Assembly (NCBI GenBank): GCA_025055455.1
Contig: JANWXD010000007.1
Coordinates: 1 to 64,000 of the forward strand
Source: Bryobacteraceae bacterium
GTDB lineage: Bacteria; Acidobacteriota; Terriglobia; Bryobacterales; Bryobacteraceae
Direction: 5' to 3'
DNA length: 64,000 nucleotides
The notes under the pieces are model-generated. The model did no database searches and was not told where the DNA came from. It saw only the letters and a list, made by a program, of their open reading frames with translations. Both the position numbers and the translations under genes were made by a program. Each line of letters begins with the position of its first letter. The stretch's first letter is position 1. Positions 422 to 15,070 of the stretch are shown in pieces.

Positions 422-2331
<1,910 letters not shown>

Positions 2332-2335
<4 letters not shown>

Positions 2336-3021
2336 TTCCCGGGTTCCCGGTTTACCTGTTCGACGTGGACGGCACGCTGCTGGACTCGGCGCCGGACATC
2401 TGCGGGGCGCTGCACGAGGCGCTGCGAACCGCCCAGGCCGACGGCGTGCCCGACGCGCTACTGCGCCGCTACATCGGGCGGCATCTCTCGGATCTGTTCC
2501 GTGACCTGTTTCCTCTGTGGCCGGCCGAGCGCATCGAGGCCATCATCCAGGACTACCGCACAGCGTACCGGGCCAGAGGACACGCCGGCACAAAGCTGTT
2601 TCCCGGCGTGGCCGAAGCGCTGTCCCGTTTGAGCGGAAGAAAGGCCACGGCGACGACGAAAAGCACGGCTTCCACCGTTCAGGTGCTGGAACAATTCGGC
2701 TTGCTTGGCTATTTCGACCACGTGCAGGGGACCGACGGCTTCCCGAGCAAGCCGGCGCCCGAGGTGATCTACCGGGCTTTGGACGCATTGAAGGCGAGGC
2801 CGGAAGAGTGTTTGTTCGTCGGAGACTCCGCCGCGGACATGGAAGCGGGCCGCCGCGCCGGCGTGAGCGTCTGCGCGGTATTGTACGGTTACGGCGATCC
2901 TCAGGAACTCGCCCGCTGGGCGCCGGATTACTGGATCTCGGACCTGCGGCAGCTAGCGGACTTCGCCGCGGAGCCGGCCGCTCTGTCCACCCCCGCTCGC
3001 ACCTCACTCGATTCGATATAG
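2332..3021 (+). CDS. gph: HAD-superfamily hydrolase, phosphoglycolate phosphatase-like
   Basis: A 229-residue HAD phosphatase. Motif I is [10 protein letters not shown] with nucleophile Asp11 and acid Asp13. Motif II is the Thr in TTKSTAST, and motif IV is [16 protein letters not shown]. The helical cap between motifs I and II, together with the length, fits the Gph/PGMB-like subfamily. Phosphoglycolate is the likely but unproven substrate; other small phosphosugars are possible. GTG is the start because it overlaps the ftsH stop by GTGA and no better start lies nearby. The 3' end overlaps the convergent membrane protein gene by 18 bases. Confidence 0.85.
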
Positions 3022-5217
3022 CCGCGCTCCGGCCCGCTCGCCCAGAAACCGGAGCCCCCATTCAGCAGCGCGCATTCGGAAATCTTCCGCGCGGAAATCC
3101 GAGTCGTGGATCAGCAAGTAGCGCACACCGTGCGCCTTGACGGCTTGGGTGGCGCGGCGGCGCAAATCCTCGGGCGCGGAAGCGTCGGAAAACTGCGGCT
3201 CGCCGAGCAGCTTCCAGCGCCCGGCTCCGTCCATGGCTTCCAGCTTGAGGCGGGTCTGACCGTGATCTTGCGAGCATTCGAGCACGACTCGGCTCACCAT
3301 GGTGGCCTCGCCTAGGTCCACCTCCACGAACATGCCGGGGCGCATGGCTTCCCAGCTCCGCCACCGGGTTGCGGGGTTGCCGTCGAAGGCCAGGTCCACT
3401 TCCCACGGATTGGGTTGCGCCGTCAGCCGCCAGGCCGGCCGCCGCGGCAAGGGATCGCTCTCGCCCTGGATCCGGAATTCGTTCACGGCCCAAAGCTCGG
3501 TCTTTGAGCGGCCGTATTGCACGACGCGCAGCTTGCGCAAGCGTTGGGGCTCGAACTGGAAGGTGAAGCGCCACACAGGGTGGTATGCGGGGATCAACGG
3601 CGTCCACAGGATGTCCCCCAAGGTGTGGTTGAACGCCGCCGTGTAGGCCACCAGGATCTCGCGGGTGGTGTAGGCCTCCGCCACGCGCTGCCAAGCGAAC
3701 ACCTTCTCGCCCGCCGGCACGGAGTCTTCGATCATGCGCGCGATGGAGTAGCCGGGCAGACGCCGGCGCAGCCACTCCTCCTCCGGGATGAGGCGCAACG
3801 CCTCGCGCCAGGTGACGCGTTCCAGGCGCCACGAATACGGGTCCGCGTACATTTTGATGTGGCTGGGCCACGAGATCAGCCCGTGAAAGACCACCACCGC
3901 CGGGGCGATGCCTGGGGTTCGCGTGAGGACCATCGCCATGGCCAGCGCCACGAACGGCGCCGCCGGAATCAGGAATCGCGTGCCGATGTTGGCGAAGTAG
4001 GTGGCCCCGAACACGCCAGCGGCAGCGAGCAGCCGCCGCCCTTGCGGCCAACGGAGCGCGAGCAGCGCCAGCGGTGCAAGCAAGAACACGGGCCCGAGCA
4101 ACCCCGCGAGCACGTGGCCTCGCACGGTGACCTCGAGCGGAATCTCGGCGTAACTGGCCAGCCCCGGGTAATGCCGCATGTGCCAGCGGTATTCCTCCTC
4201 GAAGGAGACGTGCACGTGGGGATTGCGGAACCAGGCGTTGAAGAAGGGGGAGAAGGGATTGTCCACGACGATCCAGTTCTTGGCCGCCCACGGCACGGCG
4301 ATCAGCGCGGCGCACAAACTCAGCACCGCCAGCGGACGCCACAGCGGCTGTCGGGCTTGGCGCAGCTTCCAAGCCACGAAGACCACAGCATAGGGAAAAG
4401 CGACGAAGGCTGTGTACTTGGCCGCGTAGGCGAAGCCGGAGAGGAGCCCGATGGGAACCAGATAACCCGCAGCGCGTTCCCGATCCCACAGTTGGAGCAG
4501 GTAGAACACGGCGAAGGCCACCGCCGCCACAGCCACGTCGACATAAGCGCTGGTGCCGTCGATGCCCACGACGGGGCTCAAATAAAAAAGCAGCGCTCCC
4601 GCAACGCCGGCGGCAGGAACCCCGAAGCGGCGCGCCCAGGCGATCATTCCGAAAGGCAGAGCGGCCAGAAAGGCAAAGTGCACGAGCGCCGCCGCGGAGT
4701 GGCGTCCGAAGGCGTAGGCGTAGAGGAAGAGCAGCTCGACGCCTTGCGACAGGCTCGCATACATGTTCGTCGTAATGCGGGGAAACCCGCGCTCGCGCAG
4801 ATAGCGGGCCACGAGCCCGAGGTGGTATTCGGTGCCGTCGGCGCTGATCTCCGGCGCCATGGCGTTGGCGAAGTACAGCACCGTGTACGCCGCGATTACG
4901 ACGGCGAACAACCGTTTCCAAAAGGGCTCCAGGGGTGGCAGCGGGGAAGGGGAGCGCCGGTGCGCTCCTTGCCGCCAAGCCGCCACGAGCACCGCCGCAC
5001 CGAGAGCCAGCAAGACGCCTTTGTAGAGCCAGTGCGCGACCGCCAGCCAGAAGATCAGCGCGCTCAGGCAGGCCCCGCCGGTGACGAAGGCCAGGAATCC
5101 CTCCTCCGTGCGGTGAAGCCGCAGCCCGAGGGCCCGCAGCAGCATTCGCCCGAGGGCGAGGGACACCGCGACCGTGAACGCCGCACCGAACAGGATATAA
5201 ACCGGCTGGGGAATCAC
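3004..5217 (-). CDS. polytopic membrane glycosyltransferase-like protein with C-terminal discoidin-like domain
   Basis: A 737-residue protein. About 12 hydrophobic segments cover roughly residues 4-450, and a soluble C-terminus follows. After the first segments a loop carries ISADGTEYHLGLVARYL (about residues 124-140), which resembles the acidic first-loop motif of GT39/ArnT-type (GT-C) enzymes. From about residue 596 the sequence looks like an F5/8-type C (discoidin) beta-sandwich: FDGNPATRWRSW, then VEVDLGEATMVSRVVLEC. The start is a GTG that overlaps the stop of the upstream lipoprotein gene (GTGA), making it the last gene of the nth-tldD-tldE-lipoprotein unit. A role in glycosylation or envelope assembly is inference; donor and acceptor are unknown. 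Confidence 0.7.
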   Translation of the reverse strand: MIPQPVYILFGAAFTVAVSLALGRMLLRALGLRLHRTEEGFLAFVTGGACLSALIFWLAVAHWLYKGVLLALGAAVLVAAWRQGAHRRSPSPLPPLEPFWKRLFAVVIAAYTVLYFANAMAPEISADGTEYHLGLVARYLRERGFPRITTNMYASLSQGVELLFLYAYAFGRHSAAALVHFAFLAALPFGMIAWARRFGVPAAGVAGALLFYLSPVVGIDGTSAYVDVAVAAVAFAVFYLLQLWDRERAAGYLVPIGLLSGFAYAAKYTAFVAFPYAVVFVAWKLRQARQPLWRPLAVLSLCAALIAVPWAAKNWIVVDNPFSPFFNAWFRNPHVHVSFEEEYRWHMRHYPGLASYAEIPLEVTVRGHVLAGLLGPVFLLAPLALLALRWPQGRRLLAAAGVFGATYFANIGTRFLIPAAPFVALAMAMVLTRTPGIAPAVVVFHGLISWPSHIKMYADPYSWRLERVTWREALRLIPEEEWLRRRLPGYSIARMIEDSVPAGEKVFAWQRVAEAYTTREILVAYTAAFNHTLGDILWTPLIPAYHPVWRFTFQFEPQRLRKLRVVQYGRSKTELWAVNEFRIQGESDPLPRRPAWRLTAQPNPWEVDLAFDGNPATRWRSWEAMRPGMFVEVDLGEATMVSRVVLECSQDHGQTRLKLEAMDGAGRWKLLGEPQFSDASAPEDLRRRATQAVKAHGVRYLLIHDSDFRAEDFRMRAAEWGLRFLGERAGARLYRIE

Positions 5218-5747
5218 GGCACAAAACCGGCGCGCTGGAGAATGAAGCCGAGGCGGTTGCCGTCGCGGGGATCCACGTACGCCTTGTCCACCTCGGCCGC
5301 CACGCGCACGGGCCTTCCGACGGGCAGCCAGTCCGCCGGAACGGAGCGCTCGAATCGTTTCGTTCCCGGTATGTCACATCGCAGCGTGCCGAGCGCCTTG
5401 CCTTCCACTGACACGGCAAGCGTCACCGGTCCGGTGTGGGCGAACGTAGCCTCCGCGATGGTGAACTCCATGACGAACCGCCAGGGACGCGCTTCGTGGA
5501 CCAGGAACTGGAGTTCGGCGCGCTGGGACGCCCAGCGCCACGCGCCGGCTTCGAGCGTGCGGTTCACTCCCCCGACGAGGTGAACCTCAGCGTCCGGGTC
5601 GCTCATGGCCACGAAGGCACGGAGACGGCCTGGCTCGGCGCCCGTCAGGGGGGTGCGTTCGATGGAGGGCGTGAACAGGTCCGGCCCGCGCTGGCAGGCG
5701 GCCAGCCACAGCAGGGCCGCCGCCAAGGCCGCCAGCCGCGGTCTCAT
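5214..5747 (-). CDS. small secreted lipoprotein of unknown function
   Basis: A 177-residue protein with a lipoprotein signal: MRPRL, a hydrophobic run, then the lipobox LAAC with Cys18 as the lipidated residue. The mature part is mostly beta-strand-like and has a pair of segments typical of a jelly-roll or carbohydrate-binding-like fold (RPWRFVMEFTIAEATF and GPVTLAVSVEGKALGTL), but I recognise no family. The ATG overlaps the stop of tldE by ATGA, and its own stop overlaps the GTG of the downstream membrane glycosyltransferase-like gene. It is therefore probably translated with both. Association with the membrane protein is inferred from that coupling only. Confidence 0.75.
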   Translation of the reverse strand: MRPRLAALAAALLWLAACQRGPDLFTPSIERTPLTGAEPGRLRAFVAMSDPDAEVHLVGGVNRTLEAGAWRWASQRAELQFLVHEARPWRFVMEFTIAEATFAHTGPVTLAVSVEGKALGTLRCDIPGTKRFERSVPADWLPVGRPVRVAAEVDKAYVDPRDGNRLGFILQRAGFVP

Positions 5748-7072
5748 ACCGCGTCGGAGACGCTGGTGAATTGGAAACCCGTGGAAACCAGCGGCGGCAC
5801 GACCAGAGAACCACCTTCGGCCCCCTGCACGCGTTCCGGCCGCCCGGCGCGCTGAGCGTTCTGGAGCAAGCGCACGGGGCTGTCGTTGAATCGCAGGTTC
5901 CTCACCGGCCGCGAGACCTTGCCGTTTTCGATCACAAACAAGCCGTCCCGGGTCAGCCCGGTAAATTGGAGCGTCTGCGGGTTCACGATGCGGATATACC
6001 AGAACCGGGTAACCAGAAGGCCGCGCTCGGTCTGACGGATCAGATCCTCCACGCTGCCTTCCCCGCCTTCCATCACCAAGGAACCTGGGAATCCCGTGGG
6101 TTCCTTGCCCGTTTTCGCCGCCCAGTAGCGGGTGTACACCAGGTTGCGCACCACGCCGTTTTCCACCCAGACGATGCGCCGGCTCGGGAGCAATTCTCCG
6201 GTCCAGGGCAAAGCGGGCAGCCGCGGGTCGAACGGGTCGCTGCGCAAGGTGACGAATTCCGCAAACAGCTTTTCGCCGAGGCGCGTGCCGCCTCCTTTCT
6301 TGCTCAGAAACGACCGGCCCTCTTCGGCAGCCCGTGCGTCCATGGCAAACCCCATGCGGCCGACCAGGTCGCCGACCGCGGTCGGCTCGAGCACGACCGT
6401 GTACGCGCCGGGTTCCAGGCGCTCGGCCTTGCGCCACCGGAGGCACTTGTCGATAGCCCGCGCCGCGATCTCGCTGCCGCGGATCTCGGCAATCCGCAGC
6501 GACGGCTGACCCGCCCAGCCGGAACTCGTGCCGTCCGGGGTCCGCATGGTGGTCGTGAGCCGGGCGTCGGCGGATCGGTTGTAGCCGAACAGCTTGTTCT
6601 TGTTCGCTACGGCGCGTACCGTCGCCGAGCGCAGGAAAAACCCGGCTGCGACGAGGTTGTTCTTCCGAGCCGCTTCGATGACGGCGGCGATGTGCGGGAC
6701 CATTTCCGGGGAGCGGGCACGGGCGGTCGCCTCGTCATACTTGCCCGTCTCCGGGTACTCCTGCGGACCGAGCGGCGGCATGTGCTCGGGATTGGGCGGG
6801 GCCAGAGCCGCCAGCTCTTCGGATCGCCGCACAACGGCTTCGAGCCCGGCCGGGTCGGTCTCGGTGGTCTGGGCGGTGCCGCTGCGGCCGTCGCGCGTCG
6901 AAGTTACGGTCACCGAACGTTCCAGGACGAAACCGGCCGTCGTGATGCCGTTGTTGGCGAAGCGCACGTTGGCTTGCTCGGAAGCCGCCAGCGTCACCGT
7001 GCACTCAGGAAAACGCGACAGCGACAGAATCCTCTCGGCCAGCTTCTGAGCCTCCTCCCGCGTCCACATCAT
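5744..7072 (-). CDS. tldE: TldE/PmbA-like subunit of the TldD/TldE metalloprotease
   Basis: A 442-residue member of the TldD/PmbA (PF01523) family. The N-terminal half has the family pattern around FANNGITTAGF and SVTVTSTRDGRSGTA. The C-terminal half includes LEPTAVGDLVGRMGFAMDARAAEEG where TldD has its zinc site. This gene lacks HExxxH, which is normal for TldE, the non-catalytic partner in the heterodimer. The family degrades small unfolded or modified peptides. It lies 21 bases downstream of tldD and is translationally coupled (ATGA) to the lipoprotein gene. No signal peptide is visible, in contrast to its presumed partner. Confidence 0.85.
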   Translation of the reverse strand: MMWTREEAQKLAERILSLSRFPECTVTLAASEQANVRFANNGITTAGFVLERSVTVTSTRDGRSGTAQTTETDPAGLEAVVRRSEELAALAPPNPEHMPPLGPQEYPETGKYDEATARARSPEMVPHIAAVIEAARKNNLVAAGFFLRSATVRAVANKNKLFGYNRSADARLTTTMRTPDGTSSGWAGQPSLRIAEIRGSEIAARAIDKCLRWRKAERLEPGAYTVVLEPTAVGDLVGRMGFAMDARAAEEGRSFLSKKGGGTRLGEKLFAEFVTLRSDPFDPRLPALPWTGELLPSRRIVWVENGVVRNLVYTRYWAAKTGKEPTGFPGSLVMEGGEGSVEDLIRQTERGLLVTRFWYIRIVNPQTLQFTGLTRDGLFVIENGKVSRPVRNLRFNDSPVRLLQNAQRAGRPERVQGAEGGSLVVPPLVSTGFQFTSVSDAV

Positions 7073-7093
7073 CGCGCCTCTGCCTCCCTTCCG

Positions 7094-8659
7094 TTAGTCC
7101 GTGCGGATGACGGTGATTTGCCGGAAGCGGGCTGGCGAGCAACCGTGGCTCACCGAGTTGGTCTGCATCGGCTCCCCCTTGCCGTCGTTGGGCGAGCCGT
7201 ACTGCTCCCAGTAACTGGGTCCGGCGATGCCGTCGCAGGCCTGCCAGAAATCGGGAGTCCGCGATTGGTAGGCCACCCGCGAAATCATCCCGCGCTTCTT
7301 ACCGCCTTTAATCTCCCAGAACGCGTCCCCGCCGAACTGGAAGTTGTAGCGCTGCTGGTCAATCGAGTAGCTGCCGCGTCCTTCGATCAGAATGCCGTCG
7401 TCTACGCCCGCAATCAGGTCTTCCAGCGTCACCTCGGGGGGACCGGGCGCCAGCCACACGTTCGGCATGCGCTGGAACGGCACGCTCGCCCAGGAATCGG
7501 CGTAGCAGCAGCCGCGCGACTCCTTTTCGCCGATCAGGTGCGCCTGGTCCCGGATCGTCTGAAAATGCTTGAAAATGCCCTTCTCGATGATCGGAAAGCG
7601 GGTCGTCTTGACGCCGTCGTCATCGTAGGCCACGGTAGCTAGCCCGCGCTCGTAGGTGCGATCTCCGTAGATCGTCACGATGTCGCTTCCAATCCGCTCC
7701 TTGCCCATCTTTTCCGGCGTCAGGAAGCTCGTGCCGGCGAAGTTCGCCTCATAGCCCAGCGCCCGGTCGAGCTCGGTCGAGTGGCCGATGCTCTCGTGAA
7801 TCGTCAGGAACAGGTTGCTCGGCATGAGCACCAGATCTTTCTTGCCGGGTTCGACCGGCGGCGCCGCCAAATGCTCGAGCACCTCCTGCCGGATCCGTGG
7901 CGCATGTTCGAGAAAGTTCATTTTGGGCACGTATTCCCATCCGGCTTCGAGCGGCGGTGGCGTGTAATTTCTCGTGCGGGAAATTCCCCTGGCTAAGTCC
8001 ACCGCCGTGGCCGACAGGTTGGCGATCGTGTGCACCACAAGCTGCTGGATGGAGGACCCCTCCGAAGACGCGAAGTACTTGTCCTCGGAGTGGAACATGA
8101 GCATCGCGGCGGAGGCGAAAACCCGCTTCTCTTTTTTGACCTCGGCCGCGGCCGCCCGCAGCAGCTCGAGCTTTTCGGCCACCGGGACCTCGAAGGGATT
8201 GCGCTCGAAGGGCGACGTCCACCGGTCGCGGTAAGCCCGCGTGGGCGCCAGCACCACCAGCCGCGACTGGATGCGTGCATTGGCCTCCGCCACGGCGACG
8301 GCTTCGCGCGTCATTCGGGCGATCTCCTGTTCGGTCACCACCGGCGAGGCCGCAAAGCCCCACGCACCCCGCGCGATCACGCGCACGCCGAAACCGAAAC
8401 TTTCCTGGTCGGAGACCGAAGGCACTTCGAGGGTGCGGCCGGTGCCGCGCTCCGGCGACAAGCGCACGGAAACGGTCTGGTCGCGGTAGCGGTTGATGCG
8501 AATATCGCAGTAAGTGGCTTTCAAGCGCCGGGCCTCGCGGAGCGCCGTTTGCGCCAGTTTTTCCAGTTCAGCGGAGGGCTGTTTCGCATCGCGGGGCGCC
8601 CCGAACAGTTCCGCGGCCGCACAGGCCGAAGATCCGAGAAACAGGCGTCGGGAAATCAT
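7094..8659 (-). CDS. tldD: TldD-like metallopeptidase with a Tat signal peptide
   Basis: A 521-residue catalytic TldD-type protein. The zinc site HESIGH (HExxxH) is at 288-293, and Cys507 near the C-terminus (VSHGCSPARF) fits the third ligand of E. coli TldD. The start ATG overlaps the nth stop by ATGA. From that start the protein begins with a twin-arginine pattern, SRRLFLG followed by SSACAAAELFGA, at residues 3-20. Export through Tat would be unusual because characterised TldD/TldE pairs are cytosolic. An internal start after the signal is possible but I see no good candidate. It is probably co-transcribed with nth upstream and tldE downstream. Confidence 0.87.
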   Translation of the reverse strand: MISRRLFLGSSACAAAELFGAPRDAKQPSAELEKLAQTALREARRLKATYCDIRINRYRDQTVSVRLSPERGTGRTLEVPSVSDQESFGFGVRVIARGAWGFAASPVVTEQEIARMTREAVAVAEANARIQSRLVVLAPTRAYRDRWTSPFERNPFEVPVAEKLELLRAAAAEVKKEKRVFASAAMLMFHSEDKYFASSEGSSIQQLVVHTIANLSATAVDLARGISRTRNYTPPPLEAGWEYVPKMNFLEHAPRIRQEVLEHLAAPPVEPGKKDLVLMPSNLFLTIHESIGHSTELDRALGYEANFAGTSFLTPEKMGKERIGSDIVTIYGDRTYERGLATVAYDDDGVKTTRFPIIEKGIFKHFQTIRDQAHLIGEKESRGCCYADSWASVPFQRMPNVWLAPGPPEVTLEDLIAGVDDGILIEGRGSYSIDQQRYNFQFGGDAFWEIKGGKKRGMISRVAYQSRTPDFWQACDGIAGPSYWEQYGSPNDGKGEPMQTNSVSHGCSPARFRQITVIRTD

Positions 8660-9339
8660 ACCGTTTTGTCCTCCGCATAGCAGAAGGGGTTCATTGGGCA
8701 GTCGGCGCAGCGCGGGCGGCGCGCCGTGCACAGGTTCCGGCCATGGTGGATCACCTGGTGCGAGAAGAGAATCCATCGCTCCTTGGGGATGAGCTTCATC
8801 AGGTCCTGCTCGATCTTGTTCGGATCGGTCTGCCGGGTCAAATCCAGCCGCCGGGCGATCCGTTGCACATGCGTGTCCACCACGATGCCGGAGGGGATGC
8901 CATAAGCGGTGCCGAGAACGACGTTGGCGGTCTTGCGCGCCACGCCGGGAATGGTCAACATCTCCTCCATGGTTCGAGGGACCTGGCCGCCGAAGTCCGC
9001 CAGAATCTTGCGAGCTGCGCCGATCAGCGCCTTGGCCTTGTTGTTGAAGAAACCGGTCGAGCGGATGTCTTGCGCCAGCTCCTCCTGGCTGGCCGCCGCG
9101 AAGTCCCGCACCGTAGGATATTTCTGAAAAAGCCCTGGAGTGACCTCATTGACGCGCTTGTCCGTGCACTGGGCCGAAAGAATCGTGGCGACCAACAGCT
9201 CCCAGGCGTTGCGGTGATGCAGTGCGCACGTGGCGTTCGGGTAGAGCTCGTCCAGAGCCCGGAGAATCTTGCGAAGCCGCGCTTTGCGTTCCGCCTCGGT
9301 CTGCGGACGTTTGGGTTTGGGCGCTGTTTGTACCGCCAT
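8656..9339 (-). CDS. nth: endonuclease III (DNA glycosylase/AP lyase)
   Basis: A 227-residue base-excision repair enzyme that removes oxidised pyrimidines and cleaves AP sites. It has the helix-hairpin-helix LTIPGVARKTANVVL with the catalytic Lys, and the GPD Asp in VVDTHVQRIARRL. The C-terminal 4Fe-4S cluster C-x6-C-x2-C-x5-C is complete (CTARRPRCADCPMNPFC). The chosen start at 9339 gives a short Lys/Pro-rich leader. An alternative ATG at 9363 would add eight residues and would overlap the divergent gene start at 9362. It is the first gene of the coupled minus-strand unit; its stop overlaps tldD by ATGA. Confidence 0.95.
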   Translation of the reverse strand: MAVQTAPKPKRPQTEAERKARLRKILRALDELYPNATCALHHRNAWELLVATILSAQCTDKRVNEVTPGLFQKYPTVRDFAAASQEELAQDIRSTGFFNNKAKALIGAARKILADFGGQVPRTMEEMLTIPGVARKTANVVLGTAYGIPSGIVVDTHVQRIARRLDLTRQTDPNKIEQDLMKLIPKERWILFSHQVIHHGRNLCTARRPRCADCPMNPFCYAEDKTV

Positions 9340-9361
9340 CTGGGGGCCGGAAAGCCCTAAC

Positions 9362-10873
9362 ATGATAGCATTGCGGGAACCGCTGATCCTGGCGGCTGCT
9401 GCGGCCGCCGTTTACGGAGCAGGCCTCGCCGCGCCCTTCCACCTGGACGACTATGCGCTGTTGTCCGACCGGGCCGTCACGGCGTCGGACGGATGGCGCC
9501 AGGTGTGGGCGCCGCTGCGGACGCGGCCCTTGACCTACTTCACGTTCTGGCTCAATTACCGGCTCGCCGGCAGCAGTCCAGCGAGCTACCATGCCGTCAA
9601 CCTGGGGTTGCACGCCCTCGCCTCGGCGCTGACCTGGAGCGCGCTCCGGCGCCTGATTCCGGGGCAGGCTGCGTTGTTTGCGGCGCTGTTGTTCGCCGTT
9701 CACCCGATCCAGTCGGAAGCGGTCAATTACGTGTTCGCGCGTAGCACGCTCCTAATGAGCGTCTTCTGCTTGGCTGGTTTGCGGGATTGGGTCCGGGGTA
9801 GGCACTGGCGAACCGCGGCTTGGTTCCTGGCCGCCCTTCTGGCCAAGGAGGAGTGTGCGGCGTTTCCGGCGTTTCTGCTGCTGTTGTTCGTCTCGATTTC
9901 CCGCAGCGCGGCCGAGCTCCGCCCGATAGCAGCCATGGCCGTGTTCGCCGTGGCGGCGGGCGTGCGAGTGGTGCTCGCGACGGCGGTGGAACCGGGCGCC
10001 GAGGCGGGAGTACACGCTGCGGTTTCTCCGGCGCAGTACTTCGCCTCGCAGGGAGTCGTGATCTGGCGCTATCTGCGTTTGTTGGTCTTGCCGTGGGGCT
10101 TTACGGTGGACCCGGACGTGCGGATTCCTCCGCCGGCCATCGCCGCCGCGGCTTGGATGTTGCTGGCCGCATCCGCCGCCGTGGCGTGGCGTCGTTTCGA
10201 CAGGGCTCGGGAGGGATTTTGGTGGATTGCGGGCCTGGTGCTCTTGCTGCCCAGCTCGTCGGTGTTCCCTGCGAGCGACCTGAGCGCGGACCGCAGAATG
10301 TATCTACCCATGGTTGCCTTTTCTGCCTTGGCCGGCTTGGCCGCGCGCCGCGTGCGGGCGCGCTATGCGGTGGGGGCGGTGGCGCTGCTGGCGGTGCTCG
10401 GCGCCGCCCGCACGCAGGTCTGGCGCAGCGAGCGAGCGCTTTGGGAAGAGGCTTCGCGGAGGGCGCCGCGCAAGCTCCGTCCCAAGTTGCAACTGGCCCG
10501 GTTGCTGCCCCCGCCAGAGGCGCTGCGCGTGCTGGAAGAAGCCCGCCGCCTCGCGCCGGAGGATCCGCGCGTCCCCTCGGCCATGGGGCGCGCCTATTTG
10601 ATGCTGGGCGACGCCGGCGGCGCGCTCCGGGAGTTCGGCCGCGCCCTGGCGCTGGCGCCGCAAGACGCCCGGGCGTACAACAATCGCGGTGTGGCGCTCA
10701 TGGCCCTCGGCCAGCTCGAAGCCGCGCGCCGCGATTTCCAGACGGCTCTGACGCTCGATCCATGTCTGTTCGATGCCCACTTCAACCTCGTCCGGCAGGG
10801 GCGCCGGCCCCCACCGTCGGACCGCTGCCCTTTTTCCGAGGAACAACGTCGGCAGCTTCAAGCAGCGCCTTGA
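9362..10873 (+). CDS. polytopic membrane protein with C-terminal TPR repeats
   Basis: A 503-residue protein. An N-terminal membrane domain of about 8-10 helices begins with FHLDDYALL, an acidic motif resembling the first loop of O-mannosyltransferase and TMTC-like proteins. About three TPR-like repeats follow over the last 120 residues (for example AYLMLGDAGGALREFGRAL and AYNNRGVALMALGQLEAARRDF). The same architecture occurs in TMTC-like glycosyltransferases, so a protein or lipid glycosylation role is possible but unproven. The ATG at 9362 is preceded by GGAAAG at a usable distance. The gene diverges from nth with almost no spacer, so their promoters must overlap coding sequence. Confidence 0.7.
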   Translation: MIALREPLILAAAAAAVYGAGLAAPFHLDDYALLSDRAVTASDGWRQVWAPLRTRPLTYFTFWLNYRLAGSSPASYHAVNLGLHALASALTWSALRRLIPGQAALFAALLFAVHPIQSEAVNYVFARSTLLMSVFCLAGLRDWVRGRHWRTAAWFLAALLAKEECAAFPAFLLLLFVSISRSAAELRPIAAMAVFAVAAGVRVVLATAVEPGAEAGVHAAVSPAQYFASQGVVIWRYLRLLVLPWGFTVDPDVRIPPPAIAAAAWMLLAASAAVAWRRFDRAREGFWWIAGLVLLLPSSSVFPASDLSADRRMYLPMVAFSALAGLAARRVRARYAVGAVALLAVLGAARTQVWRSERALWEEASRRAPRKLRPKLQLARLLPPPEALRVLEEARRLAPEDPRVPSAMGRAYLMLGDAGGALREFGRALALAPQDARAYNNRGVALMALGQLEAARRDFQTALTLDPCLFDAHFNLVRQGRRPPPSDRCPFSEEQRRQLQAAP

Positions 10874-10915: not shown

Positions 10916-12055
10916 ATGAAAGTTGCGTCCTTCCTGCTGCTGGCAGCGTGGGCGGCGGGCTCTTTGGCCGCGCAGAAACCTCCGGCCGAGCCCAAGACCC
11001 AGCTGGAACTCGAGCAGGAAAAAGTCGCGCAGACCCGCGTCATTCCGAAAGAGCCTCCCACGGTCGTGACGGCGGACCCGCGCCGGCTGATGTTCCACGT
11101 CTCGCCGCTGTCCGCCCGCGGATTGCTCTCGCGGCAAACCCGTGACGCCTTGCAGGCCCTGTTCCGCATGACGCGGGACATGACCATCGTCAAACTGCGG
11201 GCCTTCGTAGCCGGCAGCGGCGACATGCGGCGCGTCCAGAGCCTGGTCAGCGAAGTGTTCACTGAGCGCCGCCTGCCGTTGCCCGCCCTGACCGTGGTGC
11301 AGGTGGGCGCGTTGCCGCTTACCGGCGCCCAGGTCGTGCTCGAGTCGGTGGCCGCGGCCCGCAAAGATGTCAACCCGCACGGGCTCGCCTTCATCTCCGG
11401 GCAAGCCGCCACTTCCGAGGACTACCGGCTCACCCTGGCGCCGCTGGCAGAGAAGTCGCTGGCGGACCTCATGCGGGCGGTGCGCGGCGCCGGAGCCGAT
11501 GCAAAGGACGTGCTGCGGGTCACCTGTTTTTTGACCTCGCTCGAGGATATCGACGTGCTGCGGGCGCGCGTGGCCCGTGAGTTGCCCCATGCGGCAGCCA
11601 ACTACGTACAGATCCAGCGGGCGCCCGCGCGCAGCCTGGTCGAGTGCGAGGCCGTGGCGCGGCTGAATGCGCCCGTGGGAGCGCCTCTGCGCACGCTCAA
11701 TCCCGACGGGCTGCCGGCCTCCCCTCACTACTCCCATGTGGCGCTCGTGGGGGCGCCGAAGATCGTCCTGACCGGCGCCCAAATGGCGTTTCAATACGAG
11801 GAGCAGGACGTGCGTCTGGCGTTTCAGCGTCTGGACCGGGAGCTGGCTCAAGTCGGGGCCTCCCTCCGGCAGACTGCCATGGCTTCGATTTATCCTTTGT
11901 CGGGCGGCCTCAGCGCCTTGATCCGCAAAGTCCGCGCGGAATTCTATGACATGACCCGGCCTCCGGCCAGCACGATGCTGCCGTTCGAAGGCCTGCCCGC
12001 GCTCGACGCTTCGCTGGCCGTGGACGTCATCGCCGTTCCGGATGCTTCCAAGTGA
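10916..12055 (+). CDS. exported protein with three Rid/YjgF-like domains
   Basis: A 379-residue protein with a signal peptide (residues 1-20, AAGSLAAQ) and a charged linker. Three consecutive segments resemble the Rid (YjgF/YER057c/UK114) fold. They cover about residues 55-148, 152-250 and 262-374. Each has the pattern of an alpha helix, a strand with K-x-R/V-x-x-F/Y, a hydrophobic helix and a C-terminal strand, e.g. DVLRVTCFLTSLEDIDVLRARV and QTAMASIYPLSGGLSALIRKV. The Arg that marks active imine deaminases (in a P-A-R context) is replaced in all three: PALTV, HAAANY and PPASTM. Enzymatic RidA activity is therefore unlikely. The fold assignment is my reading of the pattern; the function is unknown. 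Confidence 0.65.
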   Translation: MKVASFLLLAAWAAGSLAAQKPPAEPKTQLELEQEKVAQTRVIPKEPPTVVTADPRRLMFHVSPLSARGLLSRQTRDALQALFRMTRDMTIVKLRAFVAGSGDMRRVQSLVSEVFTERRLPLPALTVVQVGALPLTGAQVVLESVAAARKDVNPHGLAFISGQAATSEDYRLTLAPLAEKSLADLMRAVRGAGADAKDVLRVTCFLTSLEDIDVLRARVARELPHAAANYVQIQRAPARSLVECEAVARLNAPVGAPLRTLNPDGLPASPHYSHVALVGAPKIVLTGAQMAFQYEEQDVRLAFQRLDRELAQVGASLRQTAMASIYPLSGGLSALIRKVRAEFYDMTRPPASTMLPFEGLPALDASLAVDVIAVPDASK

Positions 12056-12089: not shown

Positions 12090-13121
12090 ATGAAACCTGT
12101 AGTCACCTTCGGGGAGATCATGCTCCGGCTCGCCCCGCCGGGATTCGAACGTTTCTTGCAATCGCCGCAGTTTGTCGCCACTTTCGGGGGTGGGGAGGCC
12201 AACGTTGCGGTAGCGCTGGCCGGCTTCGGGGTACCGGCCCGTTACGTGACCGTCCTGCCGCCCAACCACCCGATCGCCGACGCGTTCGTGGGGGAGCTGC
12301 GCCGCTTCGGCGTGGACGCCTCGGCCATTGTGCGCGGCAAGGGACGCATGGGCATTTACTTTGTCGAGCCTGGGGCCAACCAGCGCCCGTCCAAGGTGGT
12401 TTACGACCGTGACTACAGCGCCATCGCTCTGGCTAAGCCCGGCGATGTGCCCTGGGAGAAGGCCTTCGACGGCGCCGGATGGTTTCACGTCACCGGCATC
12501 ACGCCGGCGATCAGCCAAAGCGCCGCTGACTTGGCCTTCGAGGCGGTCACGAAAGCACGCGCCCTCGGTCTGACGGTCTCCTGCGATCTCAACTACCGAA
12601 AGAATCTCTGGAAGTACGGCAAGAGCGCCGCCGAGGTGATGGGCGAGCTGTTCCGCCACGTGGACGTGGGCATCGCCAATGAAGAGGACTGCCAGATGGC
12701 CCTGGGCATCGAAGCTGGCGTGGACGTGGAGTCCGGCAAGCTGGACGTGAGCGCCTACCGCTGCCTCGCCGAGCGCGTGCTGGAACGCTTCCCTAACCTG
12801 AAGCTGATGGCGATCACGCTGCGGGAATCCTTCAGCGCCTCCCACAACGGCTGGTCGGCTTGTTTGCACGACCGCAGCCAGTTCCTCACCAGCCGCCGCT
12901 ATGACATCACGCACATCGTGGACCGCGTGGGGGCGGGCGACTGCTTCGCGGCGGGCTTGATCTACGGGCTCCTTTGCCTGCCCAGCCGCCAGGAAGCGCT
13001 GGAGTTCGCCGTGGCGGCGTCCTGTCTGAAGCACTCCGTGCCGGGCGATTTCAACCGGTTCTCCGTCGAGGAAGTCAATCAGTTGGTGCGCGGAGCCGGC
13101 TCCGGGCGCGTGCAACGCTAA
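12090..13121 (+). CDS. kdgK: PfkB-family sugar kinase, probable 2-keto-3-deoxygluconate kinase
   Basis: A 343-residue ribokinase-like kinase. It has the N-terminal [15 protein letters not shown], the sugar-binding [15 protein letters not shown], and the C-terminal signature [14 protein letters not shown], where the catalytic Asp lies in GAGD and Cys replaces the usual Ser. The N-terminus (GEIMLRLSPPG-like) and the [11 protein letters not shown] segment are typical of KDG kinases, which phosphorylate 2-keto-3-deoxygluconate in uronate breakdown. Substrate is inferred from these similarities. A GH88 unsaturated glucuronyl hydrolase 11 kb away supplies a compatible upstream step. The gene follows the Rid-like gene by 34 bases. 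Confidence 0.8.
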
Positions 13122-13170: not shown

Positions 13171-14199
13171 ATGCGGGGGTGCGTTGTTAGCATCCTGTTG
13201 ACGGCGTTGGCCGCCGCGTCAGGCCAGGAGCAACCGCCCGCTCCCAAGTCCTCGGGTCAGGAGCGTCCGCCTGCCTTCCGCGCTCAGGTGAATGAGGTCG
13301 TCGTGCCGGTTACCGTCACGGACGAAAAAGGACGCTTCGTCAGCAACCTGGAAGCGAGCGACTTCAAGATCTTCGACGAGGAGAAGGAACAGAAGATCTT
13401 GTATTTTTCCCGTGAGCACAACCAGCCGGTCGTGATCGGGTTCCTGCTCGACATGAGCAATGCCACGCGCCTGCACTGGAAAACGTTCCAGGAGGCGGCG
13501 CTCGAGCTGGTGTTCACGTTGCTCCCGGGCGACAAACGGTTTCGGGGCTACCTGATCACGTACGCCAACGAGCCGGAGCTGCTCGTAGACACCACTCATG
13601 ACTCCGAGCCGATCGCGGACAAGATCCGCAAACTCAAGCCCGGCGGCGGGGCCGCCTTCTTCGACGCCATTTACATGGCTTGCACCCGGCGCAGCCTGGT
13701 GGAAGGGGAACCGATCGAGCCCCGGCGCGTGCTGGTGGTCATCGGCGACGGACACGACACCGCCAGCACCAGGAGCCTGGAAGAGGTGCTGGAAATCGCG
13801 CAACGCAATCTCGTGACCATCTATGGCATCAGCACGGTCGCGTTCGGATTCGGTTCCGAGGGGGACAAGAACTTGCGGCGTCTGGCCGAGGAGACGGGGG
13901 GCCGGGTCGAATATCCCCTCGAGAATCTCTACAAGGACGTGGCCGGCTTCCTTTCGACGCCCTCCGACGAAGGCAACTATGCCTTGAAAGTCGGCACGGG
14001 CCAGTACGCGGCTAAGATCGCCAAGGGTTTGTTCAACGCGGTGGCCGCCATTGCCGGGGAGGTGACCACGCAGTACATCCTGCGCTACGTTCCCTCGGAG
14101 ACCGATGTGCCGCGGACCTTCCGGAATATCCGCGTAGAGGTCAACCTGCCGAACGTTACGGTGCGGACGCGGAAGGGTTACTACCCCTACGCCCCATAA
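13171..14199 (+). CDS. secreted VWFA-like protein of the acidobacterial TIGR03436 type
   Basis: A 342-residue protein with a short signal peptide (to about residue 19). A conserved N-terminal strand block contains VNEVVVPVTVTDEKGRFVSNLEASDFKIFDE. A von Willebrand A domain follows (about 87-270), starting VVIGFLLDMSNATR. The MIDAS is only partly kept: Asp94 and Ser96 are present, but Ala98 stands where the second Ser is expected. The C-terminal part with YILRYVPSE and VRTRKGYYPYAP is typical of the family, which is expanded in Acidobacteria. The function of the family is unknown; extracellular binding is the usual guess. Confidence 0.85.
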   Translation: MRGCVVSILLTALAAASGQEQPPAPKSSGQERPPAFRAQVNEVVVPVTVTDEKGRFVSNLEASDFKIFDEEKEQKILYFSREHNQPVVIGFLLDMSNATRLHWKTFQEAALELVFTLLPGDKRFRGYLITYANEPELLVDTTHDSEPIADKIRKLKPGGGAAFFDAIYMACTRRSLVEGEPIEPRRVLVVIGDGHDTASTRSLEEVLEIAQRNLVTIYGISTVAFGFGSEGDKNLRRLAEETGGRVEYPLENLYKDVAGFLSTPSDEGNYALKVGTGQYAAKIAKGLFNAVAAIAGEVTTQYILRYVPSETDVPRTFRNIRVEVNLPNVTVRTRKGYYPYAP

Positions 14200-14236: not shown

Positions 14237-15070
14237 ATGAGCTTGGCATGGGAGGGGGCGCAACAGGCCGAATATCTGCTGATCCAGTTGGCGCTGCCCG
14301 GCCGGCCGGAGGTCAACGCTGGCGTATTGCTCCTCGATCCCGCTCGGGATGCGCTCTACGTGAAGCTCCGCCAGGACTGGGACCGGATTGCGGCCCCCGA
14401 AGACGCCGAGGTGCTGGCGCTGCTCGAATCGGATCTGGAAGAGAAGGCGAAGCAGATGGGGGCGCGGGCGTTGCTCGAGTGGCTGGAAGATACACTCTCC
14501 AACGCGGTCCGCGTCACGCCCCGCGAGCCGGTAGCGGTTCCCGCTGGTGCGTTCCTGCGGACGTTACAGAATCTGTACCGGCGTCACGTCGAGGGCCGCA
14601 AGCTGGAAGTGGTGGAGATGCCGGCCAGCGTGCGGCACGTGCGCCTCTACTCCTTACGGGCGGCGGCCGGACCGTTCGGCGAAGACATGGAGGTGCGGCT
14701 CGAGGGCTGGGTGGAGGCCCCCGAGGAGTTGCGGGAGACGCAACGCGTTTTCCTGGCCCGCGTGGTGGGTCGCTCCATGGAGCCCCTCATCCCCGACGGC
14801 AGCTTATGCCTGTTCCGGGAGAACGTGGTCGGCTCCCGCGGCGGTAAGGTGCTGCTGGTGCAGGAGCGGGGCGCATCCGAATCCGGGGGCCGGTTCACGG
14901 TCAAGCGCTACGAGAGCGTCAAGCGGCCTGTCGGGCCCGACTCCTGGCGCCACGAGCGGATCCGGTTGATTCCCCTGAATCCCGCCTATCCGGTGCTGGA
15001 GCTGGAGCCCTCGGAGTTCGAGGATCGCTACCGCGTCGTGGGAGAGTTCGTACGGGTCCTCCCGGAGTAG
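14237..15070 (+). CDS. DUF3037-like / S24 (LexA-like) autoprotease fusion protein
   Basis: A 277-residue protein. The N-terminal part (about 8-125) resembles DUF3037 proteins (AEYLLIQLALPGRPEVNAGVLL). The C-terminal part (about 136-275) is an S24 peptidase domain of the LexA/UmuD type. It has a nucleophile Ser180 in VVGRSMEPLIPDGSL, a Lys223 general base in FTVKRYES, and an upstream AAAG (142-145) at the position of the LexA Ala-Gly cleavage site. No helix-turn-helix DNA-binding domain is visible, so this is not a classical repressor. A strong Shine-Dalgarno (GGGAGAGGG) precedes the ATG. It sits 87 bases before the ECF sigma gene, whose promoter lies in between. Function is unknown; self-cleavage is inference from conserved residues. 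Confidence 0.75.
   Translation: MSLAWEGAQQAEYLLIQLALPGRPEVNAGVLLLDPARDALYVKLRQDWDRIAAPEDAEVLALLESDLEEKAKQMGARALLEWLEDTLSNAVRVTPREPVAVPAGAFLRTLQNLYRRHVEGRKLEVVEMPASVRHVRLYSLRAAAGPFGEDMEVRLEGWVEAPEELRETQRVFLARVVGRSMEPLIPDGSLCLFRENVVGSRGGKVLLVQERGASESGGRFTVKRYESVKRPVGPDSWRHERIRLIPLNPAYPVLELEPSEFEDRYRVVGEFVRVLPE

Follow-up and report, generated by a model that had tools for sequence, protein, structure and literature searches.

An apparently exported protein of three fused Rid domains lacking the deaminase arginine in Bryobacteraceae

The window analysed here, that is, the whole stretch of 64,000 nucleotides that opens contig JANWXD010000007.1 of a Bryobacteraceae bacterium (GCA_025055455.1), comes from a genome of 3.95 Mb in 145 contigs and contains a gene for an exported-looking protein built of three consecutive Rid domains (Table 1). 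The open reading frame, its coordinates and its length had been given in the original prediction and were found correct on re-reading, and the segment limits proposed there (residues 55-148, 152-250 and 262-374) are consistent with the secondary structure of the model described below. A TPR protein is encoded upstream of the gene, and a sugar-kinase-like protein, a VWA protein and a protein with both DUF3037 and S24-peptidase matches are encoded downstream. Further upstream, at 5744-8776 on the reverse strand, lie two adjacent genes whose products carry PmbA/TldD domains.

Table 1. Genes, protein parts and pocket residues at the locus, with positions counted from the first letter of the window; residue counts refer to 81 aligned sequences.
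Feature	Position	Strand	Basis or remark
Whole gene, exported-looking protein with three Rid domains, 379 aa	10916..12055	+	ORF and Pfam
Putative signal peptide, residues 1-19	10916..10972	+	cleavage site approximate, by eye
Linker, residues 20-49	10973..11062	+	K/E-rich among relatives
Rid domain 1, residues 50-150	11063..11365	+	most conserved domain; model, alignments, conservation
Rid domain 2, residues 151-252	11366..11671	+	Pfam, alignment to 2csl, model
Rid domain 3, residues 253-379	11672..12052	+	model, 5v4f_A match, YabJ alignment
Q108, Asn88-equivalent, domain 1	11237..11239	+	Gln 43, Arg 17 of 81
L125, Arg105-equivalent, domain 1	11288..11290	+	Arg 0/81; Leu 58, Val 20, Ile 2, Phe 1
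E143, Glu120-equivalent, domain 1	11342..11344	+	Glu 81/81
R216, Asn88-equivalent, domain 2	11561..11563	+	Arg 73/81
A228, Arg105-equivalent, domain 2	11597..11599	+	Arg 2/81; otherwise mixed
E245, Glu120-equivalent, domain 2	11648..11650	+	Glu 81/81
R337, Asn88-equivalent, domain 3	11924..11926	+	Arg 74/81
S352, Arg105-equivalent, domain 3	11969..11971	+	Arg 0/81; Ser 51, Gly 20, Ala 7 and three others
D370, Glu120-equivalent, domain 3	12023..12025	+	Asp 52, Glu 29 of 81
TPR protein	9269..10873	+	ends 42 bp upstream; tblastn match in 1/80 loci
PfkB kinase, closest to KDG kinases	12090..13121	+	34 bp downstream; below every listed cut-off
VWA protein (TIGR03436)	13171..14199	+	recurrent neighbour; acidobacterial family
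Protein with DUF3037 and S24-peptidase matches	14237..15070	+	neighbour in 13/81 loci

The protein is a member of the Rid (YjgF/YER057c/UK114) superfamily. PF01042 of Pfam matches it in three stretches (E 3.4e-22; 79.1 bits against a curated cut-off of 27.3), and no other Pfam family was matched at E up to 1 in a search whose HMMER filters drop most weak matches. For structure prediction by AlphaFold2, residues 20-379 were aligned with 80 relatives, the putative signal peptide being excluded. The resulting model has a mean pLDDT of 93.7 and a pTM of 0.90, with 323 of its 360 residues at 90 or above, and the relative placement of the three domains within the single chain is predicted with confidence; low pLDDT values are found in residues 20-39 of the linker, whose conserved features are TQ (AQ in the window protein, residues 38-39) and P48. 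Structural alignment with VIA-align matches domain 3 to 5v4f_A (Z 9.9, rmsd 1.9, 120 residues, model positions 237-356), and the Rid proteins among the matches listed reach Z 8.2-9.9 over 98-120 residues, although most of these alignments span both ends of the model and only that to 5v4f_A clearly corresponds to domain 3. Domain 1, the sole segment folded alone (41 of the 81 sequences; pLDDT 91.7, pTM 0.84), aligns with NMB1025 (Z 10.9, rmsd 3.2, 92 residues) and with TdcF (Z 10.6, rmsd 3.2, 94 residues), and the fold of domain 2 rests on sequence and on the whole-chain model. A model in which two or more segments lacked the Rid fold had been named as the outcome contradicting the original prediction of three Rid-like segments in one chain; Rid folds are seen in the structure predicted here, in keeping with the threefold PF01042 match and with the structural matches of domains 1 and 3. 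In a viral structure library the top matches were Rid-like proteins of giant viruses, followed by weak ones, and human FBXO22 was among the Foldseek matches listed (E 2.0e-6, TM 0.21).

A signal peptide had also been read ahead of the Rid segments, and a signal-peptide-like N-terminus is indeed recognised by a crude scorer in the window protein and in 71 of its 80 relatives. The same scorer passes none of the KDG-kinase-like (0/27), PdxS (0/19), PdxT (0/18) and S24-like (0/13) proteins encoded in the neighbourhood, one of 26 PdxR proteins and 13 of 19 members of the VWA family. Because it also passes 10 of 18 sequences of a small phosphatase, presumably falsely, the export score is taken as supportive only. 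In many relatives the hydrophobic segment is followed by a lysine-rich stretch; for 54 of the 71 that the scorer passes, its net charge lies between +1 and +4 (the cleavage points being rough). A stretch of this kind is unusual at that place in a cleaved Sec substrate, so that a membrane anchor is possible. If the N-terminal helix remained uncleaved, the Rid domains might even stay on the cytoplasmic face of the membrane and serve PLP or KDG metabolism in a role like that of Rid4-Rid7, which would agree with the lack of signal peptides in the neighbouring gene products. We regard this as highly improbable, given the A-x-A-like sites that close the hydrophobic segment in many relatives and the lipobox-like or Tat-like starts of some members of a sister family (both judged by eye).

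The pocket residues were placed by HMMER alignment of domain 1 to TdcF, of domain 2 to 2csl and of domain 3 to YabJ, and were compared across 81 sequences, i.e., the window protein and 80 relatives, the latter being the best 80 of 171 stretches from a scan of species. According to the available text of PMC5979572, the active site of TdcF comprises Tyr17, Ser30, Asn88, Arg105 and Glu120. As had been claimed for the window protein, the deaminase Arg is substituted in all three segments, and this holds for the family at large: in 79 of the 81 sequences, that of the window included, all three Arg105 sites carry a residue other than Arg. The pocket acid, either Glu or Asp, is present at all three Glu120 sites in every one of the 81. 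Of the features expected of a RidA imine deaminase (Arg105 and Glu120 in TdcF), the catalytic Arg is therefore lacking and the acid is retained. The activity of RidA has been reported to be almost abolished by a change of Arg to Ala and little affected by a change of Glu (accessible part of PMC4433059), and with the triple loss of Arg imine hydrolysis is thus expected to be lost. A second shift concerns the Asn88 position, which is occupied by Arg in both domains 2 and 3 in 67 of the 81 sequences; we infer that this Arg may stand in for the lost cation, but it could be structural instead. The window protein accordingly shares the domain fold and the pocket acid with RidA, TdcF and YabJ, and differs from these single-domain proteins, which carry Arg105, in being Arg-less and in having Arg at the Asn88 position of two domains.

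Conservation is uneven along the chain. Its mean is 0.70 in domain 1, 0.59 in domain 2 and 0.62 in domain 3, and of the 48 positions within residues 20-379 at which conservation reaches 95%, 24 fall in domain 1, R76, R95, D103, R105, R106 and E143 being among them. Such a concentration would suit a functional enzyme whose site has been rebuilt, similar to the chorismatases or AtzD, with one dominant site centred on domain 1 and its invariant R95, R105, R106 and E143. Full-length comparisons with solved structures point in the same direction: the best full-length Foldseek matches are chorismatases and Toblerone-fold hydrolases (E 7e-9 to 3e-7 in the best 20; 7.3e-9 for the best Toblerone-fold match), and the best full-length structural alignment by VIA-align is to chorismatase (5ag3, 5a3k), with Z 13.1 for 5ag3_B. 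However, the TM-scores of these best 20 matches are low, at 0.23-0.27 (0.25-0.26 for the Toblerone-fold 5hy2_A) at 8-15% identity, the chorismatase alignment takes in only 192 of 360 residues at an rmsd of 3.9 A and 15% identity, and PF01042 remains the sole family match at E up to 1. In the literature, AtzD appears as a YjgF trimer concatenated into one chain, with conserved Ser and Lys (available part of PMC3758960), and a single chain of three YjgF-like units would be what the cyanuric acid hydrolases AtzD/TrzD have in common with the window protein. At the level of sequence, the alignment of 81 family members contains no invariant Lys or Ser, which would set the window family apart from AtzD; nor does the window protein match the AtzD/TrzD sequence family, and its TM-score to these hydrolases is low. 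A rebuilt enzyme is hence, in our estimation, a tentative and somewhat unlikely explanation. The reading that we prefer, a Rid trimer in one exported chain, leaves room for some catalysis of a different kind, as discussed below.

A search for orthologues had been recommended, and it found the gene in 35 of the 37 genomes of the window's family (Bryobacteraceae-like), the window's own included, with no match in G034 and G036. Two further families of the same order were covered: one gave no match in its 2 genomes, the other gave matches in 13 of 18 genomes, none stronger than E 3.7e-20, and the proteins inspected from these 13 belong to a sister family. A two-pattern scan over one genome per species (84,980 genomes) passed the 171 stretches mentioned above, the best 80 of which are labelled with acidobacterial groups, e.g., Bryobacterales and Solibacteraceae. 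Among 396 genomes sampled across the phylum, 17 have matches to the profile of the window family at 1e-10, made up of three window-family proteins, seven of the sister family and seven shorter frames, and the sister family is found in 7 of the 396 at 1e-30; a tblastn search of a plasmid collection with one sister-family protein gave no match at E 1e-8. The sister family can be aligned with the window family along the whole chain, and its 13 inspected sequences are likewise Arg-less and acid-bearing, with exported-looking starts, by eye, in the 12 whose start could be placed (all except L155). At position 88 of domain 3, all 13 have Asn, in contrast to the Arg of the window family. In a tree of single domains, which carries only moderate weight given its 123 columns and 65 rows, the window and sister families group by domain position, with values of 99/98 for domain 3 and 87/87 for domain 1 and no support for the grouping of domain 2.

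A second exported-looking triple Rid protein, P0002, is encoded in the same genome (G000:C90:134303-135454; L002:766-1917). The P0002 family, represented by 24 sequences from 24 of 61 genomes, shares with the window family the signal-peptide-like start and the three Rid domains, but its pockets show nearly the opposite pattern: Arg is kept at the Arg105 sites (in 19, 24 and 24 of the 24 sequences for domains 1, 2 and 3), whereas the acid is mostly lost (Asn 12, Thr 5, Ser 5 and Asp 2 in domain 1; Thr 24 in domain 2; Ser 23 and Ala 1 in domain 3). P0002 itself is one of the two members retaining Asp in domain 1, so that within the window genome full reciprocity is confined to domains 2 and 3. 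Domains 1 and 2 of P0002 pair with each other in the domain tree at 97/95, apart from the window family, and descent of both exported triple fusions from one ancestor was dropped because the tree separates P0002 from the window and sister families; the two would rather represent separate concatenations, a view to which the tree lends moderate weight. The remaining Rid genes of the window genome encode an ordinary RidA and a protein with one Rid domain (G000:C57, L003), with Arg kept and a Tat-like N-terminus, as judged by eye, and three of its four Rid genes are exported-looking.

The surroundings of the sister-family and P0002-type genes hint at the kind of chemistry in which exported Rid proteins may take part. 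Eight sister loci (L194-L201) were looked at, six of them with tests of their neighbours. By Pfam, a DUF7133 gene adjoins in three of the eight, a gene for a PQQ dehydrogenase with cytochrome c in one and an MR/MLE dehydratase-like gene in one, and one tested neighbour has no Pfam match. DUF7133 proteins are presumably dehydrogenase-like. In genome G023 (L173, reverse strand, 2160-5433), a gene with two CxxCH motifs, cytochrome-c-like by eye, a P0002-type gene and a sister-type gene follow one another with overlaps of 4 bp each. An aminotransferase gene lies just upstream in 3 of 24 P0002-type loci, and G003 (L181:7816-12249) has a row of genes for an exported-looking aminotransferase, a triple Rid protein, an MR/MLE enzyme and a DapA-like protein (so named by eye), in which the aminotransferase, the MR/MLE enzyme and the DapA-like protein have Tat-like starts, again by eye; this row suggests a pathway outside the cytoplasm. 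Taken together, these contexts support extracytoplasmic metabolism as the setting of exported Rid proteins, for families other than that of the window. The adjoining DUF7133 and PQQ dehydrogenase genes, as well as the overlapping trio of G023, could also mean that the triple Rid protein is an accessory subunit or scaffold of an exported dehydrogenase or PLP enzyme and binds no ligand of its own. This appears quite improbable, as a different set of genes recurs beside the window family, namely those for pdxRST, the kinase and the VWA protein.

These neighbours were counted over 80 loci plus the window as one locus, including only loci with enough flanking sequence. The kinase gene is immediately downstream in 25 of 71 loci with 2 kb there, and the VWA gene is downstream in 17 of 63 with 4 kb. 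On the other side, 26 of the 66 loci whose upstream sequence reaches 2.5 kb have a divergent pdxR inside that distance, and pdxS and pdxT are each upstream in 22 of 56. The order PdxR / Rid / kinase / VWA is seen in five loci (L039, L043, L055, L083 and L092). Of the 52 loci, the window among them, that extend far enough in both directions, 12 lack PdxR/PdxS, kinase and VWA altogether. PdxS and PdxT are named on NCBIfam scores over cut-off; for PdxR, the score is 327.9 bits in L043 against a cut-off of 320, and 310.6 bits, below it, in L060. Clustering of ORFs from a crude caller over the 81 loci, which are related, so that the counts are not independent events, returned Rid in 78, the kinase in 27, PdxR in 26, VWA and PdxS in 19 each, an arsenate-reductase-like phosphatase and PdxT in 18 each, the S24-like protein in 13 and a TonB-receptor-like protein (by eye) in 10, any other cluster being limited to at most 8 loci. 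The window locus has the kinase, VWA and S24-like genes and lacks the pdx side, the pdxS of this genome being located on a separate contig, C22. As the scorer finds no signal peptide in the kinase and PdxST, a pathway shared with the Rid protein across the membrane would be only indirect.

On the whole, the protein is most likely a periplasmic Rid trimer that binds a ligand or catalyses a different reaction, binding or buffering being a little likelier than catalysis; that it is an exported single-chain Rid trimer which does not hydrolyse imines in the manner of RidA seems to us about evenly balanced between true and false. In the mechanism that we propose, in line with the trimer-like unit suggested in the original prediction, the three domains would be arranged as in a RidA trimer, with pockets at the interfaces, and these pockets could accommodate a small acidic metabolite on the extracytoplasmic side, which might be held by the relocated Arg together with the conserved residues of domain 1 (R76, R95, D103, R105, R106, E143). 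Candidate ligands would be a 2-oxo acid, a sugar acid or a PLP-related compound, classes put forward on account of the vitamin B6 synthesis and KDG-kinase-like genes nearby and of the exported dehydrogenases and sugar-acid dehydratase at some sister loci. A RidA-family protein, OngD, has been reported to be required, along with a KDG kinase, by cells growing on an oxidised chitin sugar (available part of PMC9537276); this RidA and KdgK cluster was considered as a model and kept as a lead only, the catabolism described there being cytoplasmic.

The architecture as such has precedents. Proteins with three RidA domains, e.g., EF_0115, were named 3x-RidA and taken as a covalently linked trimer, and the groups Rid4-Rid7, which lack Arg and keep Glu, were termed 'mysterious' (Niehaus et al., 2015; accessible part of PMC4433059). 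The unusualness ascribed to the window protein in the original prediction therefore has to be narrowed, in that the triple RidA fusion and the Arg-less Rid groups are both already described in the available text of that paper. A literature search over titles and abstract openings, covering few subscription journals, showed no exported or Arg-less 3x-Rid among the matches listed. With 3x-RidA, compared here by description and not through EF_0115 itself, the window protein shares three tandem Rid domains in one chain; the domains of 3x-RidA are of the RidA subfamily, whereas those of the window protein are Arg-less in all three cases and belong to an exported-looking chain, and 'signal peptide' occurs nowhere in the main text of PMC4433059, the portion of that source available. 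Given that the best NCBIfam match, TIGR00004, stays at 44.8 bits, under its cut-off of 106.25, and that Arg is lost, the window domains fall outside the RidA subfamily by which 3x-RidA is recognised. Loss of Arg with retention of Glu is common to the window family and Rid4-Rid7, but Arg is replaced by Trp in Rid4 and Rid7 and variably in Rid5 and Rid6 (available text of PMC4433059), and in the window family by Leu/Val, a mixture and Ser/Gly in three fused domains. As far as we have searched, what is new is the combination of export, triple loss of Arg, Arg at position 88, a largely reciprocal paralogue and a gene order with B6 and kinase genes. The retained acid, the Arg at the Asn88 position, the Arg-bearing paralogue and the neighbouring genes all go beyond the original prediction.

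The family thus offers an Arg-less Rid protein as a single, family-conserved and apparently exported chain, part of the family being tied by gene order to vitamin B6 synthesis and a KDG-kinase-like gene. With an Arg-bearing counterpart in the same genome, it constitutes a concrete system for the function of the Rid pocket without Arg, and it also bears on whether enamine/imine damage control takes place outside the cytoplasm. A wider generalisation would be that Acidobacteria possess an exported Rid set for extracytoplasmic imine and sugar-acid chemistry, in which Arg and acid are largely split between triple Rid paralogues and, in the window family, relocation of the carboxylate-binding Arg to the Asn88 position has created a new specificity. 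The overlapping Arg-type and sister-type Arg-less genes of G023 can be cited for such a split, but we consider the generalisation as a whole doubtful.

A last observation concerns the DNA between the Rid gene and divergent pdxR. When up to 2 mismatches are allowed, 24 of 25 pdx loci (e.g., L043 and L084) have the 11-mer CCAATATGGTA upstream of the Rid gene; exact copies of its 10-mer core occur in 15 of the 25, as opposed to 0 of 25 loci without pdx. A shared operator proving control of the Rid gene by PdxR was considered and rejected: the 11-mer is absent from the 515 bp upstream of the window gene and tracks pdxR, a perfect copy standing beside pdxR in the window genome (L193:6528) with no Rid gene adjacent, and for these reasons it is assigned to pdxR and is probably the PdxR operator. 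A second motif was dropped, since it falls where the pdxR coding sequence is expected. The PdxS of the window genome, at G000:C22:48076-48933, lies inside an open frame of 760 codons.
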